From a virus: 41,652 nucleotides of DNA. Below, in pieces: positions 2,542-41,652 of this stretch (position 1 is the first letter of the stretch; each line of letters opens with the position of its first letter). The stretch covers positions 1 to 41,652 of the IMG/VR virus record IMGVR_UViG_3300009379_000029; one strand, given 5' to 3'. Below the pieces are notes generated by a model. That model was not told the DNA's origin. It did no database searches and worked only from the letters and a program-made list of their open reading frames with translations. The position numbers were made by a program, and so were the translations under genes.

Positions 2542-2593
2542 TGCTCTACCAATCGACAGACAATATCAATAGATGGGTTGTGCCACCAAACGT

Positions 2594-2632: not shown

Positions 2633-2676
2633 GTGTGGGAACCCTCGACCGCTGTCACTGTGTAGTGACCCCATGT

Positions 2677-2697
2677 CCCTGCATAGTAGGAGAATGA
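2677..2697 (+). promoter_or_regulatory. Putative phage RNA polymerase promoter, DNA-metabolism genes
   Basis: CCCTGCATAGTAGGAGAATG matches the two clearer copies at 15889 and 34861 (CCCTCCATAGTAGGG followed by purines). It is laid out like a T7 promoter, with the initiating GG run after CATAGTA. It sits just past the early terminator and before the replication genes. The upstream half is less conserved than in the other two, so it is likely weaker. Confidence 0.6.
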
Positions 2698-2730
2698 ACG
2701 TCCACCCTTAATCAATCAGGAGGCAATCAC

Positions 2731-2913: not shown

Positions 2914-2925
2914 GGAGACATTATT

Positions 2926-3558
2926 TTGGCAAAGAAAGAAAGAGCACCCCGATTCAAGACCCCTAAGGCAGAGGCCCTTTACCCCTATCTCACGGCCCCC
3001 GATGAATTTAAAGGCAAGAAGTCCTGGAAGACCACCCTCAGGCTTCATGAGGACTCCGATGCGTGTGCGACCCTCAAGGAGCAGATTGATAGTCTGGTGG
3101 ATGAAGCCTTCGAAGCCGAGATGTCCAAGCTCAAAGGTAAAGCCAAGAAGGAGTGTGCCAAGTATTACCCCTATGAAGAGGAGTACGACGAGAACGACGA
3201 GCTGACCGGCAACCTGCTGTTTCACTTCAAGCGAGCCGCCGAGTACTCCGACAAGAACACCGGGGAACTCAAGACCATCAACATCTTTAGGTACGACCGT
3301 TTCGGCAAGCGCATTCAGGATGACCAGATGGAGGCCAAGATTGGCAACCCCATGAGTGGGACGGTCCTGCGTGTCGAGTTTGAACCTTTTCAGTTCTACA
3401 ACAGTGCTGCCGGGAATGCCGGGGTGTCCTGCCGTATTGTGAGTGTCCAGTTCATCGACATCAAGCAGTTCGAAGGTGGTGGCGCTGGGTGGGACAATGA
3501 GGGTGACGAAGGTGGGGCTACCCCTGCCCGTAATGCTGATGAGCGCGACGACTTCTAA
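2926..3558 (+). CDS. Single-stranded DNA-binding protein (T7 gp2.5-like)
   Basis: Binds single-stranded DNA at the replication fork and coordinates polymerase and helicase. The 210-residue product has the basic N-terminus and the strongly acidic tail ending in Asp-Asp-Phe (NADERDDF) that gp2.5-type proteins use to contact gp4 and gp5. Starts at TTG 2926 with AAGGAG eight bases upstream; no ATG lies near. It directly precedes endonuclease I, as in T7. The fold is inferred from position, length (T7 gp2.5 is 232) and the acidic tail with terminal aromatic residue. Confidence 0.85.
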   Translation: MAKKERAPRFKTPKAEALYPYLTAPDEFKGKKSWKTTLRLHEDSDACATLKEQIDSLVDEAFEAEMSKLKGKAKKECAKYYPYEEEYDENDELTGNLLFHFKRAAEYSDKNTGELKTINIFRYDRFGKRIQDDQMEAKIGNPMSGTVLRVEFEPFQFYNSAAGNAGVSCRIVSVQFIDIKQFEGGGAGWDNEGDEGGATPARNADERDDF

Positions 3559-3560
3559 GT

Positions 3561-3992
3561 TTGGCGTTTCCTCACCGGTATTATTACCCGACCGCTAAAC
3601 AACGGGCTGCAATGGCCCCCTACCGAAGTTTGTTCGAGAAGCACCTTGCTGAGAACCTTGCCCACCGCAAGATCCCCTTTGAATACGAGACCGTAAGCCT
3701 GGCGTACATGGTCCCTGCTGAGACCAAGCGATATACCCCTGACTTCGTTGTCATGACCAATGGGGGACGGACCATCCTGGTCGAAGCAAAGGGTCTGTTC
3801 AGTGCAGATGATCGGAAGAAGGCCCTGTGGGTACGTGATTGTAACCCCGATGCTGACGTCCGGTTCGTCTTCCAGAACCCAGCTCTCAAGATTAACCCTA
3901 ACGCAAAACAGTCCTGTGCTCAGTGGGCAGAACGCAACGGCTTCAAGTGGGCCGACAAGTTCATACCCGAAGAGTGGCTCCAGGAACGATAG
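3561..3992 (+). CDS. Endonuclease I, Holliday-junction resolvase (T7 gp3-like)
   Basis: Cuts branched DNA and helps degrade host DNA and resolve replication intermediates. The 143-residue product carries the family signature: a leading Glu region (FEYETVSLAYMVP), then YTPDFVV, then the VEAKG strand followed by DDRKK, matching the active-site Asp, Glu and Lys of T7 gp3. T7 gp3 is 149 residues. Starts at TTG 3561, two bases after the SSB stop; coupling to SSB translation is likely because no strong SD is present. A stable hairpin follows directly. Confidence 0.93.
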   Translation: MAFPHRYYYPTAKQRAAMAPYRSLFEKHLAENLAHRKIPFEYETVSLAYMVPAETKRYTPDFVVMTNGGRTILVEAKGLFSADDRKKALWVRDCNPDADVRFVFQNPALKINPNAKQSCAQWAERNGFKWADKFIPEEWLQER

Positions 3993-3995
3993 TGC

Positions 3996-4037
3996 CGGAA
4001 GGACCAGGGAGCTACCCCCCTACCTCTGGTCCTTCCG
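3996..4037. terminator. Strong hairpin between convergent genes, probable terminator
   Basis: A perfect 12-bp stem (CGGAAGGACCAG at 3996-4007, CTGGTCCTTCCG at 4026-4037) with an 18-base loop follows the endonuclease stop and precedes the 3' end of the only minus-strand gene. A T/A-rich stretch follows on the plus side. Its position between convergent genes fits a bidirectional terminator, although no clean T-run is present on either side. Confidence 0.6.
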
Positions 4038-4055
4038 TTCATATTATATTCACTT

Positions 4056-4217
4056 TTAACCCAAGTGCTTGAGCAGCCAGGGCGCAACAAATGGATAAAC
4101 AAGCAGCCAGCCAAGGCTAAAGGTGATTGCCGCACCCCTATCTTCCCTCTGTCCAAGCACCAGAACACCCATGATCAAGCCTACAATTTCTCCAAGAATC
4201 AACCATCCATTATTCAT
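4056..4217 (-). CDS. Minus-strand two-helix membrane protein, unknown
   Basis: This is the only gene I can support on the minus strand. It encodes 53 residues from ATG (4217) to TAA (4056). Two hydrophobic segments are visible, GWLILGEIVGLIMGVLVLG (about 4-22) and ITFSLGWLLVYPFVAPWLL (about 31-49), joined by a charged turn (QREDRG). A GGAGG lies eight bases upstream of the start and a sigma70-like promoter with a perfect TTGACA lies upstream at 4241-4270. The convergent hairpin at 3996-4037 would end its transcript. Independent control and opposite orientation in a one-direction phage genome suggest expression from the prophage, for example a superinfection-exclusion type protein. That role is inference; I do not recognise the family. 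Too short and too close to other frames to be certain. Confidence 0.65.
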   Translation of the reverse strand: MNNGWLILGEIVGLIMGVLVLGQREDRGAAITFSLGWLLVYPFVAPWLLKHLG

Positions 4218-4240
4218 TCCTAAGCCCTCCATAAATGGGG

Positions 4241-4270
4241 ACCATACATACAGGAGACCACCTATGTCAA
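4241..4270 (-). promoter_or_regulatory. Sigma70-like promoter for the minus-strand membrane gene
   Basis: On the minus strand, TTGACA (plus-strand TGTCAA, 4265-4270) is followed after 18 bases by TATGGT (plus-strand ACCATA, 4241-4246). The -35 is a perfect match and the -10 matches four of six. It reads toward the ATG at 4217 and overlaps the start codon of the plus-strand gene at 4264. Confidence 0.5.
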
Positions 4271-4545
4271 ACCTTGCACGACGTCATACCGAGACCATCA
4301 ACAAGTATCACAAACGACTCTCCGACGAATGTAAGCGCACCAAGGAGCACCTGAAGGGTAAGCACATCTGGATCAGTGCTGCATTGATCCCCACCCGTGA
4401 CAAGAATGGTCAGCCTATCATCGGTCAGTGGCAAAGGGTTGTCATTGGTGGAACCTACCGCCGTCCCATCCCCAAAACCACTGGTCCTGCATACAAGGCC
4501 TGGGGAACGATCACCCGCAGGTTCCTGGGGAGGGCAGCAGCATGA
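4264..4545 (+). CDS. Small basic protein, unknown
   Basis: 93 residues, rich in Arg, Lys and Thr (MSNLARRHTETINKYHKRLSDE...GTYRRPIPKTTG), probably cytoplasmic. The open frame extends farther upstream, but ATG 4264 has CAGGAG seven bases ahead and the upstream part would overlap the minus-strand gene, so 4264 is chosen. Its stop overlaps the next start by four bases (ATGA), indicating translational coupling. No domain recognised. Confidence 0.7.
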   Translation: MSNLARRHTETINKYHKRLSDECKRTKEHLKGKHIWISAALIPTRDKNGQPIIGQWQRVVIGGTYRRPIPKTTGPAYKAWGTITRRFLGRAAA

Positions 4546-4856
4546 TGGGGTGGATCAAAAGAAAACTTGGTATCACCCACCTGGAGGCTGAGATCAATAT
4601 GTTGAAATGTGAGAAGGGGTACCGGGAGGGGTACCGGAGGGTCTGGGAGAGGAACCGGGCAAAGGACCGGGAGTCGAGCCGTTCCGAGTCCGTACTCAAC
4701 AAGGAGCGGGAGAAAAGACACCGCCAGGAGATCTGGCAACTGGAGGAGAGGGTTGGCGCATTGAAGGAGACCCAGGATGCCCTGCTTAACTACCTGAAGC
4801 TTGAACCTCTTGAGGTCCCGGCGGCACCTACCCGTCTGACCATGCAGGAGAAGTGA
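4542..4856 (+). CDS. Coiled-coil protein, unknown
   Basis: 104 residues, very rich in Arg, Glu and Lys. From about residue 10 to 90 it reads as one long charged helix (LEAEINMLKCEKGY...EREKRHRQEIWQLEERVGALKE), so a coiled coil is likely. Starts in the ATGA overlap with the previous gene; an ATG doublet (ATGATG) makes the exact first Met uncertain by one codon. Function unknown; it lies among replication genes upstream of primase-helicase. Confidence 0.7.
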   Translation: MMGWIKRKLGITHLEAEINMLKCEKGYREGYRRVWERNRAKDRESSRSESVLNKEREKRHRQEIWQLEERVGALKETQDALLNYLKLEPLEVPAAPTRLTMQEK

Positions 4857-4890
4857 TAACCTCTACGTCCAATTCAAGGAGAAGACACCT

Positions 4891-5622
4891 ATGAAAAGAT
4901 CAAACCAGCATAACATCGTTCTTCCTGCATCTACCATTAACAACATCTGGGGCATCTACCGTGCCGCTTATCTGAATAACCGGGAGGTTCAGAGCACCTT
5001 CATCAAGGGTGCCGGTAAGGATACCCAGTACAACGCCGTCAGGTTTGCCACCACCCTTCGTACCACCCCCAAGAGACTGCGCCGGGTGCTGTGTCTGGCA
5101 GTGAACCGAGGTTTCATGACGGTTGGGCGTAATGCCACCGGTCACCACACCTTCAAGATGACCACCAAGGGAATCGAGCGTGCCACCCTGTGTGCTCCCT
5201 GCGAGATCCCCGGCCTCGATGACTACAAGCTCTCCACGGTACCTACCATCAAGGTCACTGAGACAACCACCAAGACTCTCAAGATGCCTACCATCCGAGA
5301 AGCCGCAAAGCGTGGCTACTGCTGCCCTGGCCGTCGGCTCACCAACTGTGATGGGCATTGTGATACCTGCCTGTTGGACCCCACGAACTTCCATGAGGTC
5401 CTTCCCCTGGCTACCATCACCAAGGAGGTCACCCTGACCCGTCATCTGGTACTGCCGGAGGTTCCCGTTTCGACCCACCTGAATCGTAGCCTTTGCGCGA
5501 TCTTCTTTGGTGACCGTACTGGCCCCCACTGCAACACTGCCAACTGTGACGAGTGTGCCTTCGGTGCGTCCAACTCGGCCACTACCATTCGTACGCTGAT
5601 GGAGGGCCATGTCGGAGTATAA
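4891..5622 (+). CDS. Cysteine-rich protein upstream of primase-helicase, unknown
   Basis: 243 residues. The N-terminal 100 or so residues resemble a winged-helix arrangement (TTLRTTPKRLRRVLCLAVNRGFMTVGRNATGHHTFKMT reads as helix, helix, beta wing), which is a weak inference. The C-terminal half holds two Cys clusters, CCPGRRLTNCDGHCDTC and CNTANCDEC, that could each bind zinc. ATG 4891 has CAAGGAG nine to ten bases upstream. The 3' end overlaps the primase-helicase start by 14 bases. I do not recognise the family; DNA or RNA binding is plausible from the Cys clusters and the context. Confidence 0.8.
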   Translation: MKRSNQHNIVLPASTINNIWGIYRAAYLNNREVQSTFIKGAGKDTQYNAVRFATTLRTTPKRLRRVLCLAVNRGFMTVGRNATGHHTFKMTTKGIERATLCAPCEIPGLDDYKLSTVPTIKVTETTTKTLKMPTIREAAKRGYCCPGRRLTNCDGHCDTCLLDPTNFHEVLPLATITKEVTLTRHLVLPEVPVSTHLNRSLCAIFFGDRTGPHCNTANCDECAFGASNSATTIRTLMEGHVGV

Positions 5623-7222
5623 GACGGCGTGCCCCCACTGCGCGTCCACTGATGCCTATACGGTCTACCCTGATGGGCATGGCTACTGCTATTCCTGCGA
5701 GAAGTACGACAAGACCTCCCTGGTGGATGATGCCTGGGAAGCCAAGGACCCCACACCTCCCACACCTCCCACACCCTCCGGTCCCCTCCTGAAACCTGCC
5801 ATCAAGCCTCTCACCGCCCGGAAGATCCTGAAGAAAATCTGCCAGCGTTACGGCTATGGCTACGCCGATGGTTGTCATGTGGCGACCTATCAGTCCAACG
5901 GCCAGGATGTTGCCCAGCACTTTCGGACCAAGGACAAGGACTTTTTCTGGAAGGGTCCCACCAAGCATTTGGAACTGTTTGGCCAGCACCTATGGCAACC
6001 GGGCGGGAAACTGTTGGTAATCACCGAGGGTGAGATTGACTGTCTGACCATCGCCCAGGCCCTGAACCTGAAGGTGCCAGTGGTAAGTCTGCCCAGTGGT
6101 GCTCAGTCCGGTGCCAAGTACATCAAGCAGAACCTGAAGTTCGTCGAGAGCTTCCGTCAGGTGATCATTGCGTTCGATACCGATGAGCCTGGAACCAAAG
6201 CAGCCAAGCAATGTGCCCAGCTCCTCAAGGTCGGCAAGGCAAAGATCGCTACCTACAATGGGTTCAAGGACGCAAACGAACTCCTGTTGGAGAACCGTGG
6301 TGCTGAACTCCCTGAGTGTGTCTTCAAGGCCAAACCATACCGGCCCGATGGCATTGTCCTGGGTAGTGATATCCCTCTGTCCATGATCCTGGAGAAACCT
6401 GAGCCGGGACTCATGACCCCTTATGGTTGCCTCAATGAGATGACCCTGGGAATGCACAAGAAGCGTCTCTATCTGGTGACAGCAGGGTCTGGCATTGGCA
6501 AGTCTACTCTGGCTAAGGAGCTGGGGTTCGACATCCTAACCAACCATAAGGAACGCCTGGGCATCATGGCCTGGGAAGAGTCCCTCAAGCAAAGCGCTGA
6601 AGGTATCATCAGCCTTGACCTCAACATCCCACTTCACATCCGAAGACCCGACGACAAGCTTATTGCAGAGTCGTACCAACGGGTTATTAACCAGCCGAAC
6701 ATTGCGTTTGATCAGCACTGGGGAAGCTCGGATATCGAGACCGTATTGACCAAGATTCGGTACCTCGTAAGGGGGTTGGATATGGACTGGATCATTGTGG
6801 ACCATGTGTCCATCGTGGTGTCCGGTAACAATGAGATCGAGGAGTCTGAGCGTAAGCAGCTTGACATGCTGATGACCAACCTCAGAACCGTTATTGAGGA
6901 AACAGGTGTTGGCATCATTGCAATCTGCCACCTCAAGCGACCCGGCATGGGTAAATCCTGGAACGAAGGACGGCAGGTTAGCCTCACAGACCTTCGTGGC
7001 AGTGCGGCCCTGGAACAGATCCCCGACTTTGTGATCAGCCTGGAAGGAGACCAGCAGGGGGACATGCCAAACATCCGCATAATGCGAGTCCTGAAGAACC
7101 GCCTCACCGGCAAGGTCGGAGTTGCGGACACCCTTGAATACAACCCCACAACTGGACGTCTATTGCCCTATCAGGAAGGTGCCTGGAATGGACAGGAGGT
7201 CCAAATACCCAACGACTTTTAA
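5609..7222 (+). CDS. Primase-helicase (T7 gp4-like)
   Basis: Synthesises RNA primers and unwinds DNA at the fork as a hexamer. The 537-residue product (T7 gp4: 566) shows all expected parts in order. A zinc finger (CPHCASTD...YCYSC, residues about 6-31) recognises primase sites. A TOPRIM core follows, with ITEGEIDCLTIAQ and IIAFDTDEPGTKAA near 135-200. The RecA-like helicase has the Walker A motif AGSGIGKST at about 292-300 and Walker B DWIIVDHVS near 393. Acidic residues and NDF close the protein. The ATG lies inside the end of the preceding gene, so the two are probably coupled. Confidence 0.97.
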   Translation: MSEYKTACPHCASTDAYTVYPDGHGYCYSCEKYDKTSLVDDAWEAKDPTPPTPPTPSGPLLKPAIKPLTARKILKKICQRYGYGYADGCHVATYQSNGQDVAQHFRTKDKDFFWKGPTKHLELFGQHLWQPGGKLLVITEGEIDCLTIAQALNLKVPVVSLPSGAQSGAKYIKQNLKFVESFRQVIIAFDTDEPGTKAAKQCAQLLKVGKAKIATYNGFKDANELLLENRGAELPECVFKAKPYRPDGIVLGSDIPLSMILEKPEPGLMTPYGCLNEMTLGMHKKRLYLVTAGSGIGKSTLAKELGFDILTNHKERLGIMAWEESLKQSAEGIISLDLNIPLHIRRPDDKLIAESYQRVINQPNIAFDQHWGSSDIETVLTKIRYLVRGLDMDWIIVDHVSIVVSGNNEIEESERKQLDMLMTNLRTVIEETGVGIIAICHLKRPGMGKSWNEGRQVSLTDLRGSAALEQIPDFVISLEGDQQGDMPNIRIMRVLKNRLTGKVGVADTLEYNPTTGRLLPYQEGAWNGQEVQIPNDF

Positions 7223-7233
7223 GGAGAACCAAC

Positions 7234-7518
7234 ATGGTACAAGCTGCAATTTCTTATAATAACCCCAATGTCATCCCTATGACACTCACCAAGGATGGTG
7301 ACTGTGTTGCCTATTACGAATCCCTGACGCTTGACCAGAGCCTGGACCCCTATGCAAATTGTCATGAGGTAATGCCTGGTTGCACCATTCTTGATGAATA
7401 CATTGGGCATGGTGATGCTGAGTACCTCGAAGCCACTGTGGTTCTGGACCCTATCTTTCCCTCCTTCCATCAGCGCGTCCGTAACGCCTGGACTGCAATC
7501 AAGGCCATCTTCGCTTAG
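7234..7518 (+). CDS. Small protein between helicase and DNA polymerase, unknown
   Basis: 94 residues, weakly acidic, starting at ATG 7234 with AAGGAG eight bases upstream. Its TAG stop overlaps the GTG start of DNA polymerase (TAGTG). T7 keeps several small dispensable genes (4.3-4.7) here; I see no sequence similarity that would identify it with one of them. No membrane segment or metal motif. Confidence 0.75.
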   Translation: MVQAAISYNNPNVIPMTLTKDGDCVAYYESLTLDQSLDPYANCHEVMPGCTILDEYIGHGDAEYLEATVVLDPIFPSFHQRVRNAWTAIKAIFA

Positions 7519-12008: not shown

Positions 12009-12493
12009 GTGCAGCAGTAGGTCAGGCCAAAGGTGTCGCACCCGGTGGTGAACCCTACTTTGATACCCTGGACGCTTCCCTTTATTCAAACCCCCTCATC
12101 CTCGACACCCTCCTGGACCACATTATGACCAACCATTCCGAGTGCAACATGCTGATCCTGAGTGGTCACTTCGGTGAGGCGTTCGTCAGGCAGCATTACA
12201 GCCGGTTGGCTACCAGTGGCTACGGCTACCTGCTGTTCAGTGGTGGGATGCGTGTCGGTAAGCCACCAGAGATGTGGAGCTACCTGCGGACCAACGTGCA
12301 GAAAGCCCTGATCGTCGATGACAGCTCGTACTCATATGGAACCCTGCGGACCCTGCGACGTGAAGCATTCTGGCGTGGGTTCAACGTGGATAAAGCCGTG
12401 GTCCTTTATGATGGTGGCAAGCGAGACAACCTCAAGGGCCTCCACCTGGAGAGCTTCTATCAATATTACACACAGGAGAACATCAATGCTTAA
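11987..12493 (+). CDS. Phosphoribosyltransferase-like protein
   Basis: 168 residues. The segment ALIVDDSSYSYGTLRTL (about 106-122) matches the PRPP-binding signature of type I phosphoribosyltransferases (hydrophobic run, then Asp-Asp, then a Thr/Gly-rich loop), with a preceding beta-alpha fold (NMLILSGHFGEAFVRQHY). These enzymes join bases to PRPP; the substrate here cannot be told. The loop lacks the usual TGGT, having SYGT, so activity is uncertain. ATG 11987 has GGAGG upstream and lies in the previous gene's end. Confidence 0.6.
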   Translation: MPLKGLVSAAVGQAKGVAPGGEPYFDTLDASLYSNPLILDTLLDHIMTNHSECNMLILSGHFGEAFVRQHYSRLATSGYGYLLFSGGMRVGKPPEMWSYLRTNVQKALIVDDSSYSYGTLRTLRREAFWRGFNVDKAVVLYDGGKRDNLKGLHLESFYQYYTQENINA

Positions 12494-15888: not shown

Positions 15889-15913
15889 ATTAGGTTCCCT
15901 CCATAGTAGGGCA
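15889..15913 (+). promoter_or_regulatory. Putative phage RNA polymerase promoter, structural genes
   Basis: AGGTTCCCTCCATAGTAGGG lies here; the identical 20 bases recur at 34861. The end (CATAGTAGGG plus purines) is organised like T7 promoters. It lies in the first true gap after the replication block and upstream of portal, scaffold and capsid. Confidence 0.75.
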
Positions 15914-29425: not shown

Positions 29426-31006
29426 TTGGCATACAGCTATAAGGACGTACTGGGTGATGGTACGACCACGTTGTTTAACACCCCGAACTATCTCAAGAAG
29501 GAATACATCAAGGTACTGGTGGATGGCACTGAGACTGCCTTCACCTGGAATACAAACACCACCGTCAGCGTAGTCCCTGCCCCAGCTATTGGCACCCTCG
29601 TTCGTGTCAAGCGTGTCACTCCCCTCAAACGATCCATCAACTTCCAGAACGCCAACCTCCTTACCGAAGGCATCATGGACCTTGACTCGGATCAACTCAT
29701 GCACGTCGTACAGGAAGCAGTGGATGGCATGGATGAGAACCTGACGAAGGACAATGATGGTCACTACAATGCCAAAGGACAGCGTATCAAGGGGCTGGGG
29801 ACCCCTGAAGAAGGTAACGACGCTATGTCCCTTCGCTTCTTTGAGCACACCTACATGAGCGAATGGCGGGACCTGAAGACTGCTTCCGAGACTGATATCA
29901 AGCAAGCCCAGGACCTTGTGGATGCCGGATTGCGTGGACCCAAGGGGGACAAGGGTACCACTGGAGAGCAAGGCTCTGCGGGTGTGAATGGTGTGAATGG
30001 AATGCCAGGGGGTACCGGACCCCAGGGTTCCCGTGGTGTACAGGGTTCTAAGGGTGATCTTGGTGATTCTGGACCTCAGGGACCTCAGGGACCTCAGGGT
30101 GATACTGGAGCACGTGGACCTCAGGGTGCTCAGGGTGCTCAGGGACCTAAAGGAGACACCGGACTCACCGGACTCACCGGGGATCGTGGACCTCATGGCC
30201 CTGGAGGACCTAAAGGAGATCCTGGTACAGAAGGACCCACTGGCCCTAACGGGGCGCAAGGACCCCAAGGTACCCAAGGTACCCAAGGATCGAAGGGGGA
30301 TCAAGGCATCCAGGGGGGCACTGGAGTACAGGGCCCTATGGGTCCAGCGGGTTCTGGCATTGGGGGACCTCAGGGACCTCAGGGTGTTCAGGGTTCGGCT
30401 GGTAAGAATGGCTTGAATGGTGCGGAAGGTCCTCAAGGCGTTCAGGGTCCGATGGGCGGTCAAGGCCTGAAGGGAGACACAGGTGATATTGGCCTGAAGG
30501 GTGACACTGGCAGTCAAGGCATCCAGGGACCTAAAGGCATCCAGGGACCTAAAGGGAATGAAGGTCTCCAGGGCATCCAGGGCATTAAAGGTGACACTGG
30601 GGAGCGTGGTCTCCAGGGCGTCCAAGGTCATATTGGCCTGAAGGGTGACACTGGGGATCAGGGTGATCAGGGTCCCAAGGGTGATCAGGGTCCCAAGGGT
30701 GATCAGGGCGTCCAGGGCATCCAAGGTCCCAAGGGTGCCACTGGTGGTCAAGGTCTTAAAGGTGATCAGGGTGCTCCTGGTGTGGTTGTCTTCGCTACCA
30801 AGGCCCAGGCTGGTGCTGGTGCTGATGGTACCCATGGTATGAGTCCCCTGAGGACTAAGGAGGCCATCGACGCTCAGATCCGTCCCCTGGTCAATCAGAA
30901 GGCCGACAAAGCTATGGTTAAGTCCATGGCAAACCGTAACGTGGTCATCAGTACGGCTGCACCCAGTGGAGGAGCCAATGGTGACGTTTGGTTCAAGTAC
31001 TCCTAA
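29426..31006 (+). CDS. Tail fibre with T7 gp17-type anchor and long collagen-like shaft
   Basis: 526 residues. Residues 1-150 (SYKDVLGDGTTTLFNTPNYLKKEYIKVLVDG...RFFEHTYM) match the T7 gp17 N-terminal tail-attachment domain. Residues about 168-453 (29927-30782) are almost continuous Gly-X-Y triplets, about 95 in number, with one interruption near GPAGSGIGG. Many are GPQGPQG, GPKGDQG and GIQGIQG. A short C-terminal part (KEAIDAQIRPLVNQKADKAMV...SGGANGDVWFKYS) follows. Collagen-like triple helices in phage fibres form rigid trimeric shafts; receptor binding is then probably supplied by the downstream proteins. TTG start, no intergenic gap. Confidence 0.92.
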   Translation: MAYSYKDVLGDGTTTLFNTPNYLKKEYIKVLVDGTETAFTWNTNTTVSVVPAPAIGTLVRVKRVTPLKRSINFQNANLLTEGIMDLDSDQLMHVVQEAVDGMDENLTKDNDGHYNAKGQRIKGLGTPEEGNDAMSLRFFEHTYMSEWRDLKTASETDIKQAQDLVDAGLRGPKGDKGTTGEQGSAGVNGVNGMPGGTGPQGSRGVQGSKGDLGDSGPQGPQGPQGDTGARGPQGAQGAQGPKGDTGLTGLTGDRGPHGPGGPKGDPGTEGPTGPNGAQGPQGTQGTQGSKGDQGIQGGTGVQGPMGPAGSGIGGPQGPQGVQGSAGKNGLNGAEGPQGVQGPMGGQGLKGDTGDIGLKGDTGSQGIQGPKGIQGPKGNEGLQGIQGIKGDTGERGLQGVQGHIGLKGDTGDQGDQGPKGDQGPKGDQGVQGIQGPKGATGGQGLKGDQGAPGVVVFATKAQAGAGADGTHGMSPLRTKEAIDAQIRPLVNQKADKAMVKSMANRNVVISTAAPSGGANGDVWFKYS

Positions 31007-34860: not shown

Positions 34861-34888
34861 TATAGGTTCCCTCCATAGTAGGGGAGAG
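34861..34888 (+). promoter_or_regulatory. Putative phage RNA polymerase promoter at the genome right end
   Basis: AGGTTCCCTCCATAGTAGGG followed by GAGAG. The 20-base core is identical to the promoter at 15889. It lies 24 bases after the terminase stop, where T7 has phi-OR, and no gene follows it. A role in replication or packaging-linked transcription is likely. Confidence 0.75.
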
Positions 34889-34989: not shown

Positions 34990-35461
34990 CCTCATAGTCC
35001 CTATATATAAGGTAGCCCCCTCCCACCTGTCTCCCCACCTGTACCAGTTTCGTAGAATCGTGCAGATACAACTCCGTTGACCTGCACCCCTGGTCCTCCC
35101 ATCTGACCCCACCCGTCGTAGAATCTCCTATTATCGTCCTCACGACCTTCCCATCCTCACGCATACCAGTAGTCCCATCACCTCACGATCGTCTTCATAC
35201 GGCCCGGATGGTCCCTCTATCCTGGAATGGTCTCCCAATGTTTTCATTGCGAAAATCTGAAGGGGTATCATTAGGAGGCTGACCTGACCCTCACCCCCCG
35301 TGGCCTTGGTGTTCGCGCTAATAGGATCGTGCGTTTTCCAAAAGTAATCAGATACTGTCTATCCATAGGCCAACTTTGAGCCGTAGGGACACCACCAAAC
35401 GTCACTACACCAGCTGACAACCTTGTGGTGTCAACATCGGTCGCTGGGTGGTCTATCCGTC

Positions 35462-35533
35462 GGTGCCACCAATGGTCGGTGCTGGGGTGCCACCAATGGT
35501 CGGTGCTGGGGTGCCACCAATGGTCGGTGCTGG
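35462..35533 (+). repeat. Three perfect 24-bp tandem repeats
   Basis: Unit GGTGCCACCAATGGTCGGTG plus CTGG, three exact copies (35462-35485, 35486-35509, 35510-35533). A degenerate copy lies just upstream (about 35426-35448). Each unit contains GGTGCCACC, a short dyad. Lies in the non-coding region beside terminase; could be protein-binding sites for packaging or replication. Confidence 0.9.
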
Positions 35534-35966
35534 GGTGGTGTCTCCTGTCCTCTTGGTTGTTAACGTCGGGGTATCTGTTCGGTTGGTTGGCACTGGTGGT
35601 GGTCTCTACGGTCGCGGGACCTTGCGTCACTACACGTTCCTCTATCACTCCTGACGGCCTCTTGTGGTCACTATCTGTGATTTTTCTTGTGAGCTGGTTG
35701 TGCTGTTATTATGGGGGTTTGTCCTCTGTTGGCTGGTGGTGGTCAATCTTTTGTAATCTTTTCTGTTGACTGGTGGGGGTGGTCCGTGTAGCTTCAATCC
35801 ATCAACGGGGCAGCAACAACGCTCCATCGGGAACGGGCACTGAGCCCAACCCCTTAGATCTTTGACAAATTGAAGTGAGTGCCAAGTAAGCACCGACGAC
35901 CACAGCGGGTGGTTGTCACGACGACGAACGGCACAAAAGGTAACACTCTGTTTCTTCCAAACAAAT

Positions 35967-36010
35967 AGCGGGACCACAGGACGGCCAAATGGTCAACCTG
36001 TGGTCCCGCT
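35967..36010. terminator. Perfect 14-bp inverted repeat, terminator-like
   Basis: AGCGGGACCACAGG (35967-35980) and CCTGTGGTCCCGCT (35997-36010) with a 16-base loop, followed by CCTTTCATGTTT. It could stop transcription entering or leaving the early region, or be a processing site. The tail is not a clean T-run. Confidence 0.6.
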
Positions 36011-36127
36011 CCTTTCATGTTTATGGTCGAATAGGATCACTACAGCCACCCCACCACGATTAGGAACACTCCGAAAGGGTGGTAAACGGTAGCCGTGGTG
36101 GTCTTCTCCGACTATTAACTAAGTACT

Positions 36128-36139
36128 GGCCTTCGGGCC
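36128..36139 (+). other. UUCG-tetraloop hairpin before the first early gene
   Basis: GGCCTTCGGGCC forms a GGCC/GGCC stem closed as C(UUCG)G, with T and A extending it. It lies just upstream of the SD ATGGAGGAAC. The same element precedes the gene at 37734. Likely a 5' mRNA stabiliser. Confidence 0.7.
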
Positions 36140-36157
36140 AACATGGAGGAACAACCT

Positions 36158-36442
36158 ATGGATAACAAACAGTTTATATGTGCAGCCATAATGGAGAACT
36201 TCCCGGAGACATCAAAGGTTCCCGGTGAGGACTTCGGTACCGACTATTGGATCACCAACGGAGCACGGGCCTTAGGGCGCGTATCAGTGAGTGATAGTGG
36301 TTTGGGTTGCATTCAGGTTTGGTATCAGACGAATGGTGAAGACGAACCGAAGTCAGCCCACCTCAGCTACTCGAAACGCACCGACAGTGTGTGCGCTCTG
36401 GTAGATGATATGTTGACGGACTTCCAGCGGCTTACTTGCTAA
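36158..36442 (+). CDS. Small acidic early protein, unknown
   Basis: 94 residues from ATG 36158; the ATG at 36143 is part of the SD (ATGGAGGAAC) and is not used. Moderately acidic with FPETSKVPGEDFGTDYWI and SVCALVDDMLTDFQRL. First gene of the early region, where T7 encodes the Ocr DNA mimic, but I see no similarity. Host-takeover function is possible. Confidence 0.75.
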   Translation: MDNKQFICAAIMENFPETSKVPGEDFGTDYWITNGARALGRVSVSDSGLGCIQVWYQTNGEDEPKSAHLSYSKRTDSVCALVDDMLTDFQRLTC

Positions 36443-36475
36443 TCCACCGAACGACAGTACAAACCAAGGGGAACT

Positions 36476-36652
36476 ATGAACGACACCACGGCACAATACA
36501 TAACACGCCTACCTTGTGTGAAGGGGGTGGCTGTATTGCTGGACTTAGGGGCAACTGTAACTGAAGAGGACGGCACACTCTCTTATCAAATAGAGGGTTA
36601 CGTGTTCTTCAAAGCGTACCCGGACAGCACCACCCTGTATTACGAGTGTTAA
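36476..36652 (+). CDS. Small early protein, unknown
   Basis: 58 residues from ATG 36476 after AAGGGGAAC. Beta-rich and weakly acidic (GVAVLLDLGATVTEEDGTLSY, VFFKAYPDS). Stop TAA is followed five bases later by the first conserved intergenic hairpin. Unrecognised. Confidence 0.65.
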   Translation: MNDTTAQYITRLPCVKGVAVLLDLGATVTEEDGTLSYQIEGYVFFKAYPDSTTLYYEC

Positions 36653-36656
36653 TGAC

Positions 36657-36701
36657 CTATCGGACTCCTGACAATGGTCGGGGGTCTCATTAGACTATTA
36701 A
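36657..36701 (+). other. Early intergenic hairpin, copy 1
   Basis: Conserved CTATCGGACTCCT, variable inner part, then GGGGGTCTCATTAGACTATTAA. A 10-bp stem can form: GACTCCT pairs with GGGGGTC (two G-U), extended by GAC/GTC around loop AATG. It shares flanks with copies at 37022 and 37652, whose inner three pairs differ but still pair. Likely an RNA-processing or regulatory site between early genes. Confidence 0.75.
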
Positions 36702-36720
36702 CCCTATGGAGGAACGAACC

Positions 36721-37017
36721 ATGATTAGCACATTTAGTGAGCCACGAGTCTTTCTTAATAAACTCAAAAACATATACTCCATGTGGGATGGTGGGTACAA
36801 CCTGTTCTTTACCACCACTGACGGGGGAACACTATGTGTTAAGTGTGCTAAGGAAGAACGCACCAATATCATGCGGTCAATGGCTCATGAAGTTGACGAC
36901 GGGTGGAGGGTAAATGGTCTGGACAGTTGCACTGACTATGACCCAATGCCAGAACCTGACGACGACTGGGATGCAGCACCGATCATTTGTGATCACTGTG
37001 GAAAGGTCCTGAATTAA
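36721..37017 (+). CDS. Early protein with two CxxC pairs, unknown
   Basis: 98 residues from ATG 36721; an upstream in-frame ATG at 36706 is part of the SD. CVKC (about 41-44) and CDHCGKVLN at the C-terminus form a likely zinc site. The stretch between is acidic (DYDPMPEPDDDWD). Flanked on both sides by conserved early hairpins. Function unknown. Confidence 0.75.
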   Translation: MISTFSEPRVFLNKLKNIYSMWDGGYNLFFTTTDGGTLCVKCAKEERTNIMRSMAHEVDDGWRVNGLDSCTDYDPMPEPDDDWDAAPIICDHCGKVLN

Positions 37018-37021
37018 CACT

Positions 37022-37065
37022 CTATCGGACTCCTGAATACTTCGGGGGTCTCATTAGACTGTTAA
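37022..37065 (+). other. Early intergenic hairpin, copy 2
   Basis: Same conserved arms as at 36657 (CTATCGGACTCCT ... GGGGGTCTCATTAGACT then GTTAA), with inner pairs GAA/TTC around a three-base loop TAC. The change at all three inner positions relative to the other copies keeps pairing. Confidence 0.75.
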
Positions 37066-37097
37066 ACAAAACATAACCACCAACGGAGGAACATACT

Positions 37098-37619
37098 ATG
37101 AGTGAAAACCAAATCTACGTAGCTTGCCTTGCAGCATATAATAATGGTCATCTTCATGGAGAATGGATTGACGCAACCATGGGGTACGACACTGTCATGG
37201 AATCCATCCGGGAAATGCTCAAGGCAAGCCCCATACCGAACGCCGAAGAGTGGGCCATCCACGATTACGATGGTGAACTGTCAGGGTTGGGCCTGGGAGA
37301 GTACGAAGACCTTGAAACCGTCTGTACCCTGGCTGAGAAGTTGGAGGAGATCGGGGAACCCTTTGGTGCCTTTTACCAGTGGGCCGGAAGCCTGGACACA
37401 GCTGTCGAACACTTCGAGGACGCCTACCAAGGGACCTACGGTAGTGAGGAGGAGTACGCACAAGCATGGTGTGACGAAATGGAGGCATTGAAGGACGTCC
37501 CAAGCTACATTCAGTATCACATTAACTGGGAAGGGGTTGCACGGGACATGTTTATCAACGATGTCCACAGTGAGGAATTGAGCAACAGGCACATTGCGGT
37601 CTTTAGCAATAACTGGTGA
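37098..37619 (+). CDS. ardA: Antirestriction protein ArdA
   Basis: Mimics B-form DNA and inhibits type I restriction-modification enzymes, protecting incoming phage DNA. 173 residues, very acidic. The start IYVACLAAYNNGHLHGEWIDA is the hallmark ArdA block; then EEWAIHDYDG, the acidic EYEDLETVCTLAEKLEE, and FEDAYQGTYGSEEEYAQAW follow the family order and length (about 165-170). ATG 37098 has GGAGG upstream. It takes the functional place of T7 Ocr (gp0.3) among the first genes to enter the cell. Flanked by the conserved hairpins. Confidence 0.93.
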   Translation: MSENQIYVACLAAYNNGHLHGEWIDATMGYDTVMESIREMLKASPIPNAEEWAIHDYDGELSGLGLGEYEDLETVCTLAEKLEEIGEPFGAFYQWAGSLDTAVEHFEDAYQGTYGSEEEYAQAWCDEMEALKDVPSYIQYHINWEGVARDMFINDVHSEELSNRHIAVFSNNW

Positions 37620-37651
37620 TCCACCACTCGACAGAACAGACTGTTAATGAT

Positions 37652-37697
37652 CTATCGGACTCCTAAGTGAGGCTTGGGGGTCTCATTAGACTATTAA
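37652..37697 (+). other. Early intergenic hairpin, copy 3
   Basis: Same conserved arms; the inner pairs are AAG/CTT around loop TGAGG. Together with copies at 36657 and 37022 it shows compensatory change in three base pairs, good evidence that the RNA structure is maintained. Confidence 0.75.
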
Positions 37698-37704
37698 CAA
37701 CAAC

Positions 37705-37716
37705 GGCCTTCGGGCC
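37705..37716 (+). other. UUCG-tetraloop hairpin, second copy
   Basis: GGCCTTCGGGCC, identical to 36128-36139, again directly upstream of ATGGAGGAAC. Likely protects the 5' end made by cleavage at the preceding hairpin. Confidence 0.7.
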
Positions 37717-37733
37717 ACATGGAGGAACAACAC

Positions 37734-38108
37734 ATGAGCATTACCACTGAAGGGAACACTTTCGACAGCTACGCTTGTATCGGGGACACCGTCGAACGTG
37801 AGTCCGACAAGTATCGTCTGGTGGCCCGTCTGGAGTTTGACCACGACACCACCCCTGACGAATTTGACTGCTACGACGACGAGGACACCCAGGCATGGAA
37901 GGACAATGAGTGGTGTTATGTGGGGATTGTAATTGGTGCCAGCTATGACGGTATCACCCTGGATGACCACCTAACGTCTTGCTGGGGCTACGAGATGAAC
38001 CTTACTGACAACACATGGCTGACCACGGAAGCACTCCGACTCATGGAGGAGTCCATGGAGGAGGCTGAAGAGTTACGCAAGGATATGACCGCACGTCTGG
38101 CCGCATAG
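37734..38108 (+). CDS. Acidic early protein, possible DNA mimic
   Basis: 124 residues from ATG 37734; the upstream in-frame ATG (37719) is part of the SD. Strongly acidic (FDHDTTPDEFDCYDDEDTQAW, MEESMEEAEELRKDM). The composition and the place beside ardA would suit a DNA-mimic or host-inhibitor protein, but no family is recognised. Confidence 0.75.
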   Translation: MSITTEGNTFDSYACIGDTVERESDKYRLVARLEFDHDTTPDEFDCYDDEDTQAWKDNEWCYVGIVIGASYDGITLDDHLTSCWGYEMNLTDNTWLTTEALRLMEESMEEAEELRKDMTARLAA

Positions 38109-38117
38109 GAGGAACAC

Positions 38118-38348
38118 ATGAACGAACGAATTGTAATGTGTGTTGGCACATGGCCTGAGGACAATTATGCGGACTTTGAACTGACTGTGGCCGAAAAGCG
38201 TCACATCCTGAACGACCACAGCATGAACTACAAGGTACTACCCGATAACTCCCTGATTGCAGAGGAGGTCTTCAGCACAGGACCAAGCAAGTGGGCTGAC
38301 ACCACCGGGTGGACATGCTCCAATATCCGCAATTGGCTGGGCTATTAA
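38118..38348 (+). CDS. Small early protein, unknown
   Basis: 76 residues from ATG 38118 with AGGAGGAAC upstream, nine bases after the previous stop. VAEKRHILNDHSMNYKVLPDNSLIAEEVFSTGP; ends WTCSNIRNWLGY. Slightly acidic, soluble. No known domain. Confidence 0.75.
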   Translation: MNERIVMCVGTWPEDNYADFELTVAEKRHILNDHSMNYKVLPDNSLIAEEVFSTGPSKWADTTGWTCSNIRNWLGY

Positions 38349-38359
38349 GAGGGAACACA

Positions 38360-38614
38360 ATGCTGAAATCAGAGAACGTTAACAACTATCGACTCGTGAA
38401 GGCCATAGCTGAGGTGCATATCCATGGGACATATCTGGAGGACTACATCGTGGATGTATTCTTTGAGCACGGAAGCTTTGGTGTCAAGGCATGGAACGAA
38501 GATGGCGAACGGAACTTCCGGGTGGTGGACTCCGAGTGCGCCCTTTGCCAGGGTGAAGTTGATTATTGCACAAACTGCGGAGCCCACTCTGGCATGGCTC
38601 TTGAGGAGCTTTAG
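38360..38614 (+). CDS. Small early protein with C-terminal zinc-ribbon-like Cys pairs
   Basis: 84 residues from ATG 38360 after GAGGGAAC. N-terminal alpha-beta part (YRLVKAIAEVHIHGTYLEDYIV) and a C-terminal CALCQGEVDYCTNCG that can bind one zinc. Unknown function. Confidence 0.75.
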   Translation: MLKSENVNNYRLVKAIAEVHIHGTYLEDYIVDVFFEHGSFGVKAWNEDGERNFRVVDSECALCQGEVDYCTNCGAHSGMALEEL

Positions 38615-38623
38615 GAGGAACGT

Positions 38624-38803
38624 ATGAAACTAACATTCTGCTGCCAGGGACAGGTGATGACCGCCCATACAGGGACAGCCCGATGGAACTGGATCAATTG
38701 GCAGCTACATCAGGAGGGCTACAAACCATTGGAACGTTTACTGAACTACCCGGAACCAGTCACTGTGGGTTCCTATACGATCCTGGATGTACGCCGGGGT
38801 TAA
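38624..38803 (+). CDS. Small Trp-rich early protein, unknown
   Basis: 59 residues from ATG 38624 with AGGAGGAAC upstream. MKLTFCCQGQVMTAHTGTARWNWI...; four Trp-adjacent aromatic residues in the N-terminal half, ends YTILDVRRG. Soluble by appearance. No family recognised. Confidence 0.65.
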   Translation: MKLTFCCQGQVMTAHTGTARWNWINWQLHQEGYKPLERLLNYPEPVTVGSYTILDVRRG

Positions 38804-38865
38804 ACCTCAATCGGAGGGTCCCAACCCTGGGGCCTTCCTGTGGATGTTTAACCATAGGAGGTTTA

Positions 38866-39141
38866 TTGAAACGACTGTTAATTGGAATGGTGTTGGTCAT
38901 ACTACTGACGGGATGTACCCACAGCACTCTAATACCATTATTTTCCGGCAATTGTGTGGATCGTGCAGTTCAGATTCGCCAGCATCTCAAGGAGGACGGA
39001 TACGAAGCTGAGATCGTCATCGGAACAGGTAGGCTGCATGGTAAGAAGGTAGGTCACGCCTGGATTAAGTACCGGAAGCCAGGGAACTCTGAGTGGATTC
39101 GGTACACAAATTGGATCGCTAAACGAGAGGACATTTTATGA
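38866..39141 (+). CDS. Small lipoprotein with Cys-His (transglutaminase-like) motifs
   Basis: 91 residues from TTG 38866, which has AGGAGG upstream. A basic start, hydrophobic helix and lipobox (KRLLIGMVLVILLTGC) predict lipid attachment at Cys17, placing the protein in the envelope. The mature part has NCVDRAVQIRQHLKEDGYEA followed by GHAWIKY and EWIRYTNW: the order Cys, His, then an acidic or polar residue resembles transglutaminase-like / papain-fold proteins, though it is very short. It could be a lysogenic-conversion or superinfection-exclusion factor (inference). A longer in-frame reading from 38683 would overlap the previous gene and destroy the signal peptide. Confidence 0.75.
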   Translation: MKRLLIGMVLVILLTGCTHSTLIPLFSGNCVDRAVQIRQHLKEDGYEAEIVIGTGRLHGKKVGHAWIKYRKPGNSEWIRYTNWIAKREDIL

Positions 39142-39239
39142 AGCTACTGATCGGCCTGGGGCTTATCTTTGGGTTACCTATCCTGGGGGCCTATCTCCAT
39201 GAAGCTTTTGAACGCCACCAGCAAACCCCAAGGGATTGA
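39138..39239 (+). CDS. 33-residue single-span membrane peptide
   Basis: ATG overlaps the lipoprotein stop (ATGA). KLLIGLGLIFGLPILGAYL is a single membrane helix, followed by a charged tail (HEAFERHQQTPRD). The coupling to the lipoprotein suggests that the two act together at the envelope. Very short, but the overlap and composition are convincing. Confidence 0.55.
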   Translation: MKLLIGLGLIFGLPILGAYLHEAFERHQQTPRD

Positions 39240-39264
39240 AGCACATAGACTTATAGTGTATAGC
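39236..39264 (+). promoter_or_regulatory. Sigma70-like promoter of the regulator gene
   Basis: TTGAAG (39236-39241), 17-base spacer, TATAGC (39259-39264). It would start transcription near 39271, inside the inverted repeat at 39265-39303 just before the regulator ATG. Confidence 0.6.
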
Positions 39265-39303
39265 GGGGGTTATTACCCATCAAGGAACAGGAAGATAACC
39301 CCC
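39265..39303 (+). promoter_or_regulatory. Inverted repeat over the regulator's start site and RBS (operator or RNA switch)
   Basis: GGGGGTTAT (39265-39273) and ATAACCCCC (39295-39303) are perfect inverted copies. The first abuts the -10 box; the second ends one base before the ATG at 39305. The AAGGAACAGGAAG SD region lies in the loop. Either an operator bound by the HTH protein itself, or a hairpin presenting or hiding the SD. Confidence 0.6.
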
Positions 39304-39304
39304 T

Positions 39305-39835
39305 ATGTGCAGTATTCATAAGAAAATCCGAAGGGCCATGGCCTTGAAAAAGCTCTCCGTGGAAGACCTACAACGTCACTGTGGTGTGGCACGTTCCACT
39401 GTCTACAGATGGCTCAATGGTTCATCAGTCCCTCAGGGAGAGGCGCATGTCCGACTATTGGAGCTGCTACGTGTTGACCGTGACTACAACGAGAACCCTG
39501 GCCCGTGGAATGACCCACTTATAGGGTCCGAATTGAATGGCTGCATCGTCATTGTGTATGAGCAGGATGGTCATATCATATACTCTGAACCCTACGTCAA
39601 TCCCCTCTGGCAGGACTCCATAATTCACCACAACATTATTGACTACTGGTGCGAAACACCTGAGAGGTTCCAGATGATCCAAGCACTGGTGCAGGGGGGT
39701 GTGCCCCTATGTCTGGAACATTGCCATCGTCATAAGAATGTCGTCCGTGCATCACTGGGGTGGGTTCACCACTTGAAGCACAAGGGGCTGTTTAAGTACC
39801 AGGAGACTTGGTTCGAGCACTGTATGCTTGACTAA
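39305..39835 (+). CDS. Cro/CI-type HTH regulator with a PAS-like C-terminal domain, probable repressor
   Basis: 176 residues. Residues 8-58 (KIRRAMALKKLSVEDLQRHCGVARSTVYRWLNGSSVPQGEAHVRLLELL) form an XRE helix-turn-helix. The remainder lacks the Ser-Lys peptidase of LexA/CI repressors. Instead NGCIVIVYEQDGHIIYSEPYVNPLW...QMIQALVQGGVPL has the strand order of a PAS sensor domain (weak, my reading). It lies between early genes and integrase with its own promoter and operator-like repeat, so it is the best candidate for lysogeny repressor. Confidence 0.8.
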   Translation: MCSIHKKIRRAMALKKLSVEDLQRHCGVARSTVYRWLNGSSVPQGEAHVRLLELLRVDRDYNENPGPWNDPLIGSELNGCIVIVYEQDGHIIYSEPYVNPLWQDSIIHHNIIDYWCETPERFQMIQALVQGGVPLCLEHCHRHKNVVRASLGWVHHLKHKGLFKYQETWFEHCMLD

Positions 39836-39875
39836 AAGTGAGACAAACTATTCCCATTATTCGCATATGTGGGAC

Positions 39876-39904
39876 TTGACGACCCATGATGGTGGGCGTA
39901 ATTA
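39876..39904 (+). promoter_or_regulatory. Sigma70-like promoter for the 39964 gene, MarR-like gene and integrase
   Basis: TTGACG (39876-39881), 17-base spacer, TAATTA (39899-39904). The spacer carries ACCCATGATGG, close to ACCCATCAAGG in the regulator's own leader (39275-39285), which may be a shared operator half-site. Confidence 0.6.
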
Positions 39905-39963
39905 CAGGGGCACAGGAAATAGTGATTGGTAATATATAGAAGTATTAAGGAGCAGTAAGACAC

Positions 39964-40245
39964 ATGGAAGTCACAATCAAGAGTGAGAATACCCTTGTGG
40001 TTATCGAAGATGGATGTTATCTACTGATCGAAAGCACAACAACAAGTCAATTCATTACTTGGGATCGGTTGAGCAAACCAGTACAATCACTGATTGCAGA
40101 GTGGTGGCATCGTCTGGCGTTCCTGAGTGTCGTAGATGAACAACGATTTATAAGGGAGATCACGTATGAACTTGAAGAAGCTTGTAGGACTGACGGGACA
40201 CATTCGCACGAACATACAGCACGACATCAACATTCAGCAGCTTGA
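39964..40245 (+). CDS. Small protein upstream of MarR-like gene, unknown
   Basis: 93 residues from ATG 39964 with AAGGAGCAG upstream. Beta-rich N-terminus (VTIKSENTLVVIEDGCYLLIEST), an aromatic helix (VQSLIAEWWHRLAFLSVVDEQRF) and a His-rich tail that overlaps the next gene by 80 bases. The tail may be less important than the body. No function assigned. Confidence 0.65.
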   Translation: MEVTIKSENTLVVIEDGCYLLIESTTTSQFITWDRLSKPVQSLIAEWWHRLAFLSVVDEQRFIREITYELEEACRTDGTHSHEHTARHQHSAA

Positions 40246-40510
40246 TATCCTGTTCCGGGTGGCCCTGAACCCTGGGATCACCCAGCCTGAACTCATGGAG
40301 CAGACCGGTCTTATGACTGGTAGTATCTCCCGCCATCTTGCCAAGCTCGGACGATACCGTAACCATAGCACGGGGAAGATGGTGGGCCTGGGGTACGTCA
40401 TTCAGTCACCTGATCCTGAGAACCGGAAACGGCTGGCCTCATATCTAACACTTGAAGGTAAACAGGCTATCGAGGAGGTGCTGGGATCATGGGACAATAC
40501 GTCAAAGTAG
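40166..40510 (+). CDS. MarR-type winged-helix regulator
   Basis: 114 residues. [41 protein letters not shown] is a winged helix of the MarR group, followed by the beta wing [29 protein letters not shown]. MarR proteins bind as dimers; the usual N- and C-terminal dimerisation helices are short here. ATG 40166 has AAGGGAG upstream. It overlaps the integrase by 22 bases, so it may control or be co-expressed with int, for example as an excision or lysogeny factor. Confidence 0.8.
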
Positions 40511-41652
40511 CGACGGGCTTGGTTCAGTGGTACAACGGTGATGGTGAGGCCACAGGCGACATAAAGATGCAGTTCCGACATCGAGGTAAGCGGGTTGCCC
40601 GTACCACTGGTTCGAGGGACATCAAGAGAGCCAAGGTGGTCATGGAGCAGGTCCGGCTGGAACTGGATGCAGACGCCGGGGTTACCATGGAGCGATTATC
40701 CACCGGGAACTACACACGCCTAAGTGAGGCCGTTGAGGTCTATTATAACGTTAACTGGAAGGGGACGCTGCATGGGGATGACTCCAAGGTCAAGCTGGAG
40801 ATCATCATCAACCATCTTCACAATCCCTACTGTCACAGCATTAATAGCATGATTGTGAAACGCCTACGCCGCTCCCTTGCCACTGAGGACATTGGGTCCC
40901 ATGATGAGCCTAAGTTCCGGGCACCCACCACAGTGAATCGTTACATTGCAGCCCTCAAGACGGTAATGATTGATCTCCAGAAGCAAGGCTACATTGATCG
41001 GCTCCCTGAGTGGGGGATGGTCAGCGAGAAGCCTTATCGAAGAGACCGAGTGATAACCGATCCTGAGTTAGGGGACATCATCAAGTACTGCCACAGGCCT
41101 GTCTATCGCTATGGTCGGACCAATGGTAAACGTGCTGTCCTCCTCGACAAGGTGACACGAAAGCCAATCATTAACCAACGGGCCACCGAGATGCGGCAAC
41201 GGGTGGGAGACCTTTTTCTGGTCCTTCGTAAGACAGGTATGAGAATAGGGGAGGCCACCTCGATCGCCTTTGGCCGTCACATTAAGATGGACCGTCGGGC
41301 CATAACGATCACCGCCGACATAGCCAAGGGGAAGTCCATCCGAACCATTCCAATGGCTGACGTTGTGTATGAGATCCTAAGCAGCATCACGCCTGGACCC
41401 GATGGTCGAGCCTTCCCATTCACCAAGGACTACGCTGACAAGGTGTGGCGACAAGCTCGGAGCCTCTTAGGGATCGAGGACAAGAACTTTGTGCCCCATG
41501 CCTTACGTCATACCCTTGCTACCAACCTCTTGGAGAAGGGGGTCCCTGTTGGTAAGGTCCAGGCCCTGTTGGGTCATGAGGATCTCAGCACCACGATGAT
41601 CTATACGCACCTCACTGCCGATGATATGGGGGGTGTGCTGAATGCAAGTTAG
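40489..41652 (+). CDS. int: Tyrosine recombinase integrase
   Basis: Integrates and excises phage DNA by site-specific recombination. 387 residues. The catalytic set is complete: Arg252 (TGMRIGEA), His337 and Arg340 (HALRHTLA), His363 ([10 protein letters not shown]) and the nucleophile Tyr372 (MIYTHL). The N-terminal 190 residues hold the arm- and core-binding part ([15 protein letters not shown] resembles a SAM-like domain). ATG 40489 overlaps the MarR-like gene. It lies immediately upstream of the RNA polymerase if the genome is circular, as in other integrase-bearing T7-like phages. I see no tRNA-like att site nearby. Confidence 0.95.

Follow-up and report, generated by a model that had tools for sequence, protein, structure and literature searches.

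We found that the early genes of a temperate T7-like phage are separated by repeated hairpins whose structure in the sense-strand RNA is kept by compensatory base changes, and whose location and topology match those of the RNase III sites (R sites) of phage T7. The phage is represented by a virus record of 41,652 bases, the whole of which was analyzed and is referred to here as the window. We regard the hairpins as probable RNase III processing signals of a polycistronic early mRNA, resembling the T7 R sites in action and forming a sequence family of their own. In T7, the cutting of early mRNA by RNase III is textbook biology, and it is known from close relatives as well.

The phage and its early region

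The window carries a T7-like RNA polymerase gene at 1–2541 and also encodes a primase/helicase, a head–tail adaptor, a major head protein, a tail protein, and a terminase. Together with the integrase gene (Table 1), this T7-like gene set indicates a temperate T7-like phage; HTH regulators are present as well. The record runs from the polymerase ATG at position 1 to the integrase stop codon at its last base, like a prophage trimmed at gene borders. The closest RNA polymerases in annotated phages were only about 33% identical to that of the window, and the window polymerase, used as a single-protein query against viral_contigs, returned no match. Additionally, the right 11.7 kb of the window had no near DNA relative in the annotated phage collection. 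The sequence TCCCTSCATAGTAGG, of which three exact copies lie ahead of gene blocks (2676–2690, 15896–15910, and 34868–34882), is a candidate for, and probably is, the promoter of the phage's own RNA polymerase; presumably, it resembles the T7 promoter. In the tail region, the protein encoded by the ORF at 29426–31006 contains a collagen-like stretch with nine-base-periodic repeats (30013–30775).

The early genes start at approximately 36.1 kb. On their 5′ side, a long non-coding stretch harbors 24-bp tandem repeats around GGTGCCACCAATGGTCGGTGCTGG (35449–35537), and a strong, terminator-like 14-bp hairpin is located at 35967–36010. A ten-pair stem (39255–39305) ends just 5′ of the ATG of an HTH repressor-like gene (39305–39835). 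The hairpin copies are designated c1 to c4, with a partial copy, c0, ahead of the first early gene.

Table 1. Coordinates of the hairpin copies, the adjoining early genes, and the integrase gene in the window
Feature	Position	Strand	Description
c0	36110–36155	+	3′ arm only (GACTATTAAC), with GGCCTTCGGGCC hairpin and ATGGAGGAAC leader; 5′ of first early gene
Gene upstream of c1	36476–36652	+	Stop codon 36650–36652
c1	36648–36702	+	Outer stem 7 bp; middle stem 3 bp, fourth pair C·A; upper stem 11 bp; inner triplet GAC/GTC; apical loop AAUG; internal loop 2×3 UC/CAU
Early gene 3′ of c1	36721–37017	+	ATG behind GGAGG, by eye; ORF listing from 36706
c2	37013–37066	+	Inner triplet GAA/TTC; apical loop UAC; outer stem UUAACA/UGUUAA
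ardA-type antirestriction gene	37098–37619	+	c2 and c3 on either side; phrog_2059, E 1.4e-32
c3	37643–37698	+	Inner triplet AAG/CTT; upper stem 11–12 bp
Early gene 3′ of c3	37734–38108	+	Start by eye; ORF listing from 37719
Gene upstream of c4	38624–38803	+	Stop codon 38801–38803
c4	38797–38854	+	Diverged fourth copy; 17.6 bits, E 0.063 (c1–c3 model, filters off)
Gene 3′ of c4	38866–39141	+	TTG start; small protein, lipoprotein-like N-terminus, lipobox-like LLTGC
Integrase gene	40489–41652		

Structure and covariation of the hairpins

A preliminary description of this DNA had reported three intergenic hairpins with identical arms, and these copies are real and lie on the coding strand (repeat families D9 and D10). 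Upon folding, c1–c3 each formed one irregular hairpin of about 55 nt on the sense strand, with a common layout: an upper stem of 11–12 bp, a 2×3 internal loop (UC/CAU), a middle stem of about 4 bp (3 in c1), a 1×1 mismatch (2×2 in c1), and an outer stem of seven pairs (six in c2). The outer and middle stems had been missed before. The fold energies of c1–c3 beat 200 of 200 dinucleotide shuffles (z = −3.77, −5.78, and −6.00), and each copy scored 76.8–81.8 bits in a model built from the three, high scores being given by construction. Arms and internal loop are highly conserved among c1–c3, and the apical loop is variable. The hairpins lie between early genes, just ahead of the Shine–Dalgarno sequence of the next gene. 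In c1, c2 (37015–37017), and c4, the plus-strand stop codon of the upstream gene is inside the 5′ arm, and c3 lies 24 bases 3′ of the upstream stop codon. At the gathering score, Rfam 15 gave no matches in the window, and a tRNA search of the window was empty.

The inner triplets had been described as changing together at all three positions while still pairing. This is correct for two of the three pairs, and the middle pair is A–U in all three copies. A third covarying pair, previously overlooked, is in the outer stem, where c2 carries a double change from U–A to C–G; a G–U to A–U change in this stem had also gone unnoticed. In the three-row alignment, 97.0% of cells were paired and double-sided changes occurred in 3 of 22 pairs, whereas among 500 shuffles of this alignment, 1 reached that paired percentage and 18 that number of pairs.

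With filters off, c4 was the sole further plus-strand match in the window for the three-copy model. It has the same architecture, with the 3′ internal loop one nucleotide shorter and an upper stem almost wholly different yet paired, and it overlaps the stop codon of the gene before it, with a Shine–Dalgarno sequence downstream. The c1–c4 alignment had 96.6% of cells paired and 8 of 22 pairs double-changed, and 0 of 500 shuffles reached either value, figures to be taken with caution given that c4 was found by a pairing-favoring model and hand-aligned with one N. The partial match noted earlier before the first gene is also present: GACTATTAAC occurs three times in the window (36110, 36693, and 37689) versus 0.03 expected. 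At c0, the 5′ arm is absent and the hairpin did not form on folding; the GGCCTTCGGGCC and ATGGAGGAAC leader is common to c0 and c3. Since c0 consists of the 3′ arm and a c3-like leader, the first mRNA could begin with what cutting would give the others.

The sense folds of c1, c2, c3, and c4 had energies of −23.5, −22.4, −26.5, and −33.7 kcal/mol versus −15.6, −17.8, −18.3, and −23.6 kcal/mol for the antisense folds, that is, the sense strand was more stable by 4.6–10.1 kcal/mol in all four copies, owing to G·U pairs. The conserved sense-strand G·U pairs, combined with the compensatory changes, indicate an RNA rather than a DNA element.

Likeness to T7 and T3 RNase III sites

For comparison, T7 sites were folded at what we take to be the positions of the RNase III cuts. 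In R0.3, R1, and R1.1, an upper stem of 9–10 bp is joined through a 2×3 internal loop to an interrupted lower stem, the topology also seen in the window; R0.5 has its minimum-energy fold in another register, yet this site fits the same descriptor. The descriptor is sequence-blind (upper stem of at least 9 pairs, 2×3 loop, and pairing at 9 or more of 12 lower positions) and post hoc, having been devised after both the T7 folds and the window had been seen. In the window, all four of its matches were on the plus strand: c1–c3 and a fourth that falls within a coding region. T7 1–7500 contained five, comprising R0.3, R0.5, R1, and R1.1 (four of the five known sites) and 80–134, which we assume is no known RNase III site. 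The three T3 matches were all annotated R sites (R0.5, R1, and R1.1, i.e., three of five). K1F had two matches and phiKMV one, the minus strands had none, and there were none in gh-1, including its four putative sites, or in SP6. Within 36000–40500 of the window, three matches were observed, whereas 500 shuffles gave 14 in total, with at most 1 per shuffle.

Beside the lower stem, a U faces a U across the internal loop, a feature outside the descriptor criteria that was noted here, with no published definition behind it. Facing U's were found in 10 of the 11 descriptor matches from the T7, T3, gh-1, SP6, K1F, and phiKMV records and in three of the four window matches, i.e., all three copies, the exception being the one in the coding region. 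Elsewhere, they occurred in 8 of 69 matches on the plus strand and in 2 of 45 on the minus strand (11 re-fetched or duplicate loci and three pieces of the window left out). In an alignment of 16 sites (A8), U13 and U38 were the sole invariant positions (16/16), with the SP6 row chosen by its loop signature and with phiKMV 4568–4618, whose loop lacks U–U, and T7 80–134 left out.

A covariance model of seven T7 and T3 sites (R3), run with filters off and E up to 10, returned no window copy, which indicates that the window copies resemble those sites by their shape and loop and not by their sequence as a whole. The same model returned four K1F sites (two of them missed by the descriptor), one in L041 (E 0.043), and one in L377 (E 2.9); the L270 and SP6 sites described below were not returned. 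Beyond its training rows, model R2, applied to 267 sources, returned T3 R0.3 where it is annotated, K1F 707–767, K1F 1766–1820, a minus-strand match with an E value of 4.5, and nothing else. The description of the elements as having their own sequence is borne out by this blindness of R3, by the absence of the exact 16-mer from viral_contigs, and by 0 of 168 related loci with the covariance model. These results support the view that the window elements are like T7 R sites in shape and place, not members by sequence profile, with a predicted RNase III role.

When the window covariance model (R1) was applied to 86 and 82 related loci, the best match outside the window had an E value of 0.98 and was on the minus strand, and L215, the nearest TerL relative (67%), had nothing better than 1.2. 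A looser gapped pattern matched at least 119 stretches in viral_contigs, which entered the descriptor scans only. Upstream of the polymerase gene in the 86 related loci, the descriptor gave 5 plus-strand versus 3 minus-strand matches, i.e., no general enrichment. One outstanding site among them, L041 2093–2151, has 12+12 pairs, the UA/AAU loop of T7 R1, and the upstream stop codon in its arm. Relaxed limits combined with the loop signatures seen so far in sites gave 12 plus-strand matches (T7, 4; T3, 2; K1F, 1; SP6, 1; window, 3; L041, 1) and 1 minus-strand match in 2.2 Mb, versus 2 and 3, respectively, with permuted loops in the same scan; none of 160 further loci had the loop signature. SP6 3318–3372 was found solely by this relaxed scan, being missed by models R2 and R3.

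Near-identical copies of the hairpins in related phages were not found; the expectation of further copies holds in the form of a positional counterpart in L270 and its close relative L377, with CUCAUU. The L270 record, reached via terminase, encodes a T7-like polymerase, an ardA homologue (44%), and a homologue of the gene 3′ of c3 (50%). Its hairpin (12376–12431) lies between the latter two, which are one extra gene apart, and has the loop UA/CAU, with CUCAUU around the internal loop as in the window; L377 shows a compensated U–A to C–G change in the lower stem. In the alignment of the window, L270, and L377, 96.4% of cells were paired and 12 of 22 pairs were double-changed. The pairing of the L270 site is not independent evidence because this site was picked by the descriptor, whereas its location, its loop, and the difference between L270 and L377 are.

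Several other hairpins and leaders were observed in the related records. RNase III-site-like hairpins, unannotated in the records, occur in K1F (L213; 707–767, 1030–1084, 1766–1820, and 5566–5621) and at the above SP6 position (L212). L385 has three hairpins of its own family (2386–2440, 2859–2917, and 3484–3543), the last two of which flank ardA; the outer arms are kept, and the upper stem of the first is different but paired. Two intergenic hairpins in L392 (1157–1219 and 1968–2030) share the fixed loop CATTGATGTTG, with stems that are different and compensated. The L270 phage repeats a leader motif around AACTATCCACCTTCGCGA in its early region (L376; 2263–2295, 2469–2501, and 3575–3607). 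A count of stable intergenic hairpins of at least 16 bp, made in the window and 33 further loci, was too permissive and was set aside, the plus- and minus-strand numbers being similar among the matches listed.

Predicted processing, alternative readings, and known systems

From the structure and placement of the hairpins, we infer that the early genes would be transcribed as one mRNA, by host RNA polymerase, in which each element folds into an irregular helix of roughly two turns. Host RNase III may recognize this helix and cut once, on the 3′ side of the 2×3 internal loop; by analogy with T7 ...UAU^GA..., the predicted cut is ...GUCUCAU^UAGACUAUUAAC.... The putative benefit would be twofold: the upstream mRNA would keep the upper stem as a protective 3′ end, and the next gene would gain, from the released lower 3′ arm, a short leader before its Shine–Dalgarno sequence. 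With the stop codon in the 5′ arm of c1, c2, and c4, terminating ribosomes could delay folding.

It is unlikely that the hairpins stay uncut and serve as passive 3′ stabilizers and as insulators between the translation of adjacent early genes. Strong structures right after stop codons and right before Shine–Dalgarno sequences would suit such a function, and covariation is equally compatible with it, but a plain stem would suffice, whereas the 2×3 loop, its U–U face, and CUCAUU are kept between the window and L270 while the stems change. Less probable still are terminators or attenuators, or HK022 put-type antitermination RNAs, that set read-through in the early operon. An early intergenic hairpin region of LUZ100, a related temperate T7-like phage, is annotated as terminator T2 and gave a long stem on folding. 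However, the sequence behind every hairpin copy in the window is devoid of a U-run, and a terminator scan of the window did not report c1–c3; its match at 38834–38861 pairs part of the 3′ half of c4 in another register. The put elements are two-hairpin RNAs near early promoters, a layout that differs from one hairpin per gene junction. They act on early phage genes, according to the available part of their description (PMC9378689).

We give slightly less credence again to sites for a phage or host RNA-binding protein that controls how the genes behind them are translated: the conserved arms and internal loop of c1–c3, with their variable apical loop, would fit such sites, but no candidate protein was found, and c4 and L270 retain the shape, not the stem sequence, which suits a shape-reading nuclease better. 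DNA-level repeats, such as repressor operators, promoters of the phage RNA polymerase, or ESAS-like recombination linkers, are very improbable, for although inverted repeats 5′ of early genes in a phage with an integrase and HTH regulators would be in line with them, the sense-strand G·U pairs and compensatory changes favor RNA, and the phage promoter looks like a different sequence, TCCCTSCATAGTAGG.

If RNase III processing is the correct reading, the same architecture, with its own sequence and maintained by compensatory change, occurs among temperate T7-like phages with RNA polymerase identities of only about 30%; the RNase III strategy would then be older or would have arisen repeatedly, and selection would keep shape and internal loop rather than stem sequence. 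The hairpins also offer a small set of natural substrates on which the choice of a single cut by RNase III could be studied. A wider idea, possible but doubtful, is that phages outside the T7 group have a class of processing hairpins divergent in sequence and recognized by their shape together with the U–U 2×3 loop, in which the upstream stop codon in the 5′ arm would make the cutting of early mRNA translation-gated. Our searches of open-licence literature yielded no account of RNase III sites beyond the T7 group.

Among known systems, the PeSL of T4-type phages are mobile regulatory cassettes, namely repeated stem-loops between early genes that carry an early promoter. The repeated early intergenic stem-loops are alike in the window, whereas only two promoter-like 9-of-12 matches overlapped hairpins, namely c1 and c2, with the overall total at chance level; a host promoter was not identified. 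In cluster K mycobacteriophages, the ESAS, as far as the available part of the source (PMC3203893) goes, are similarly repeated inverted repeats just 5′ of some non-structural genes, with a variable spacer; their arm departures do not support RNA pairing and DNA-binding sites are preferred by the authors, whereas the window arms covary. The companion 13-bp SAS GGGATAGGAGCCC, associated with the start codon, had no occurrence in the window at up to two mismatches.

The T7 and T3 R sites differ from the window elements in that the stem sequences are unrelated; furthermore, the window elements have a longer upper stem and a predicted cleavage, and belong to a temperate phage. In the available parts of PMC6121014 and PMC4858673, T7 R1.1 is described as an RNA of 60 nt that has an asymmetric internal loop and one main cut site; the loop is 4/5 in PMC6121014, larger than the 2×3 loop of the energy folds here. 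Conversely, R0.3, R0.5, R1, R1.1, and R1.3 share with the window elements their position between early genes, an irregular hairpin of about 50–55 nt, an upper stem of 9–12 bp, a lower stem of approximately 10 pairs with a mismatch, and a 2×3 internal loop in which a U faces a U. One R site adjoins an antirestriction gene, as c2 and c3 do in the window, and in T7 R0.5 and R1, as in c1, c2, and c4, a stop codon lies at or inside the 5′ arm. The original impression that these elements stand between early genes in the manner of T7 RNase III sites thus agrees with their topology, their U–U 2×3 loop, and their placement at the upstream stop codon.
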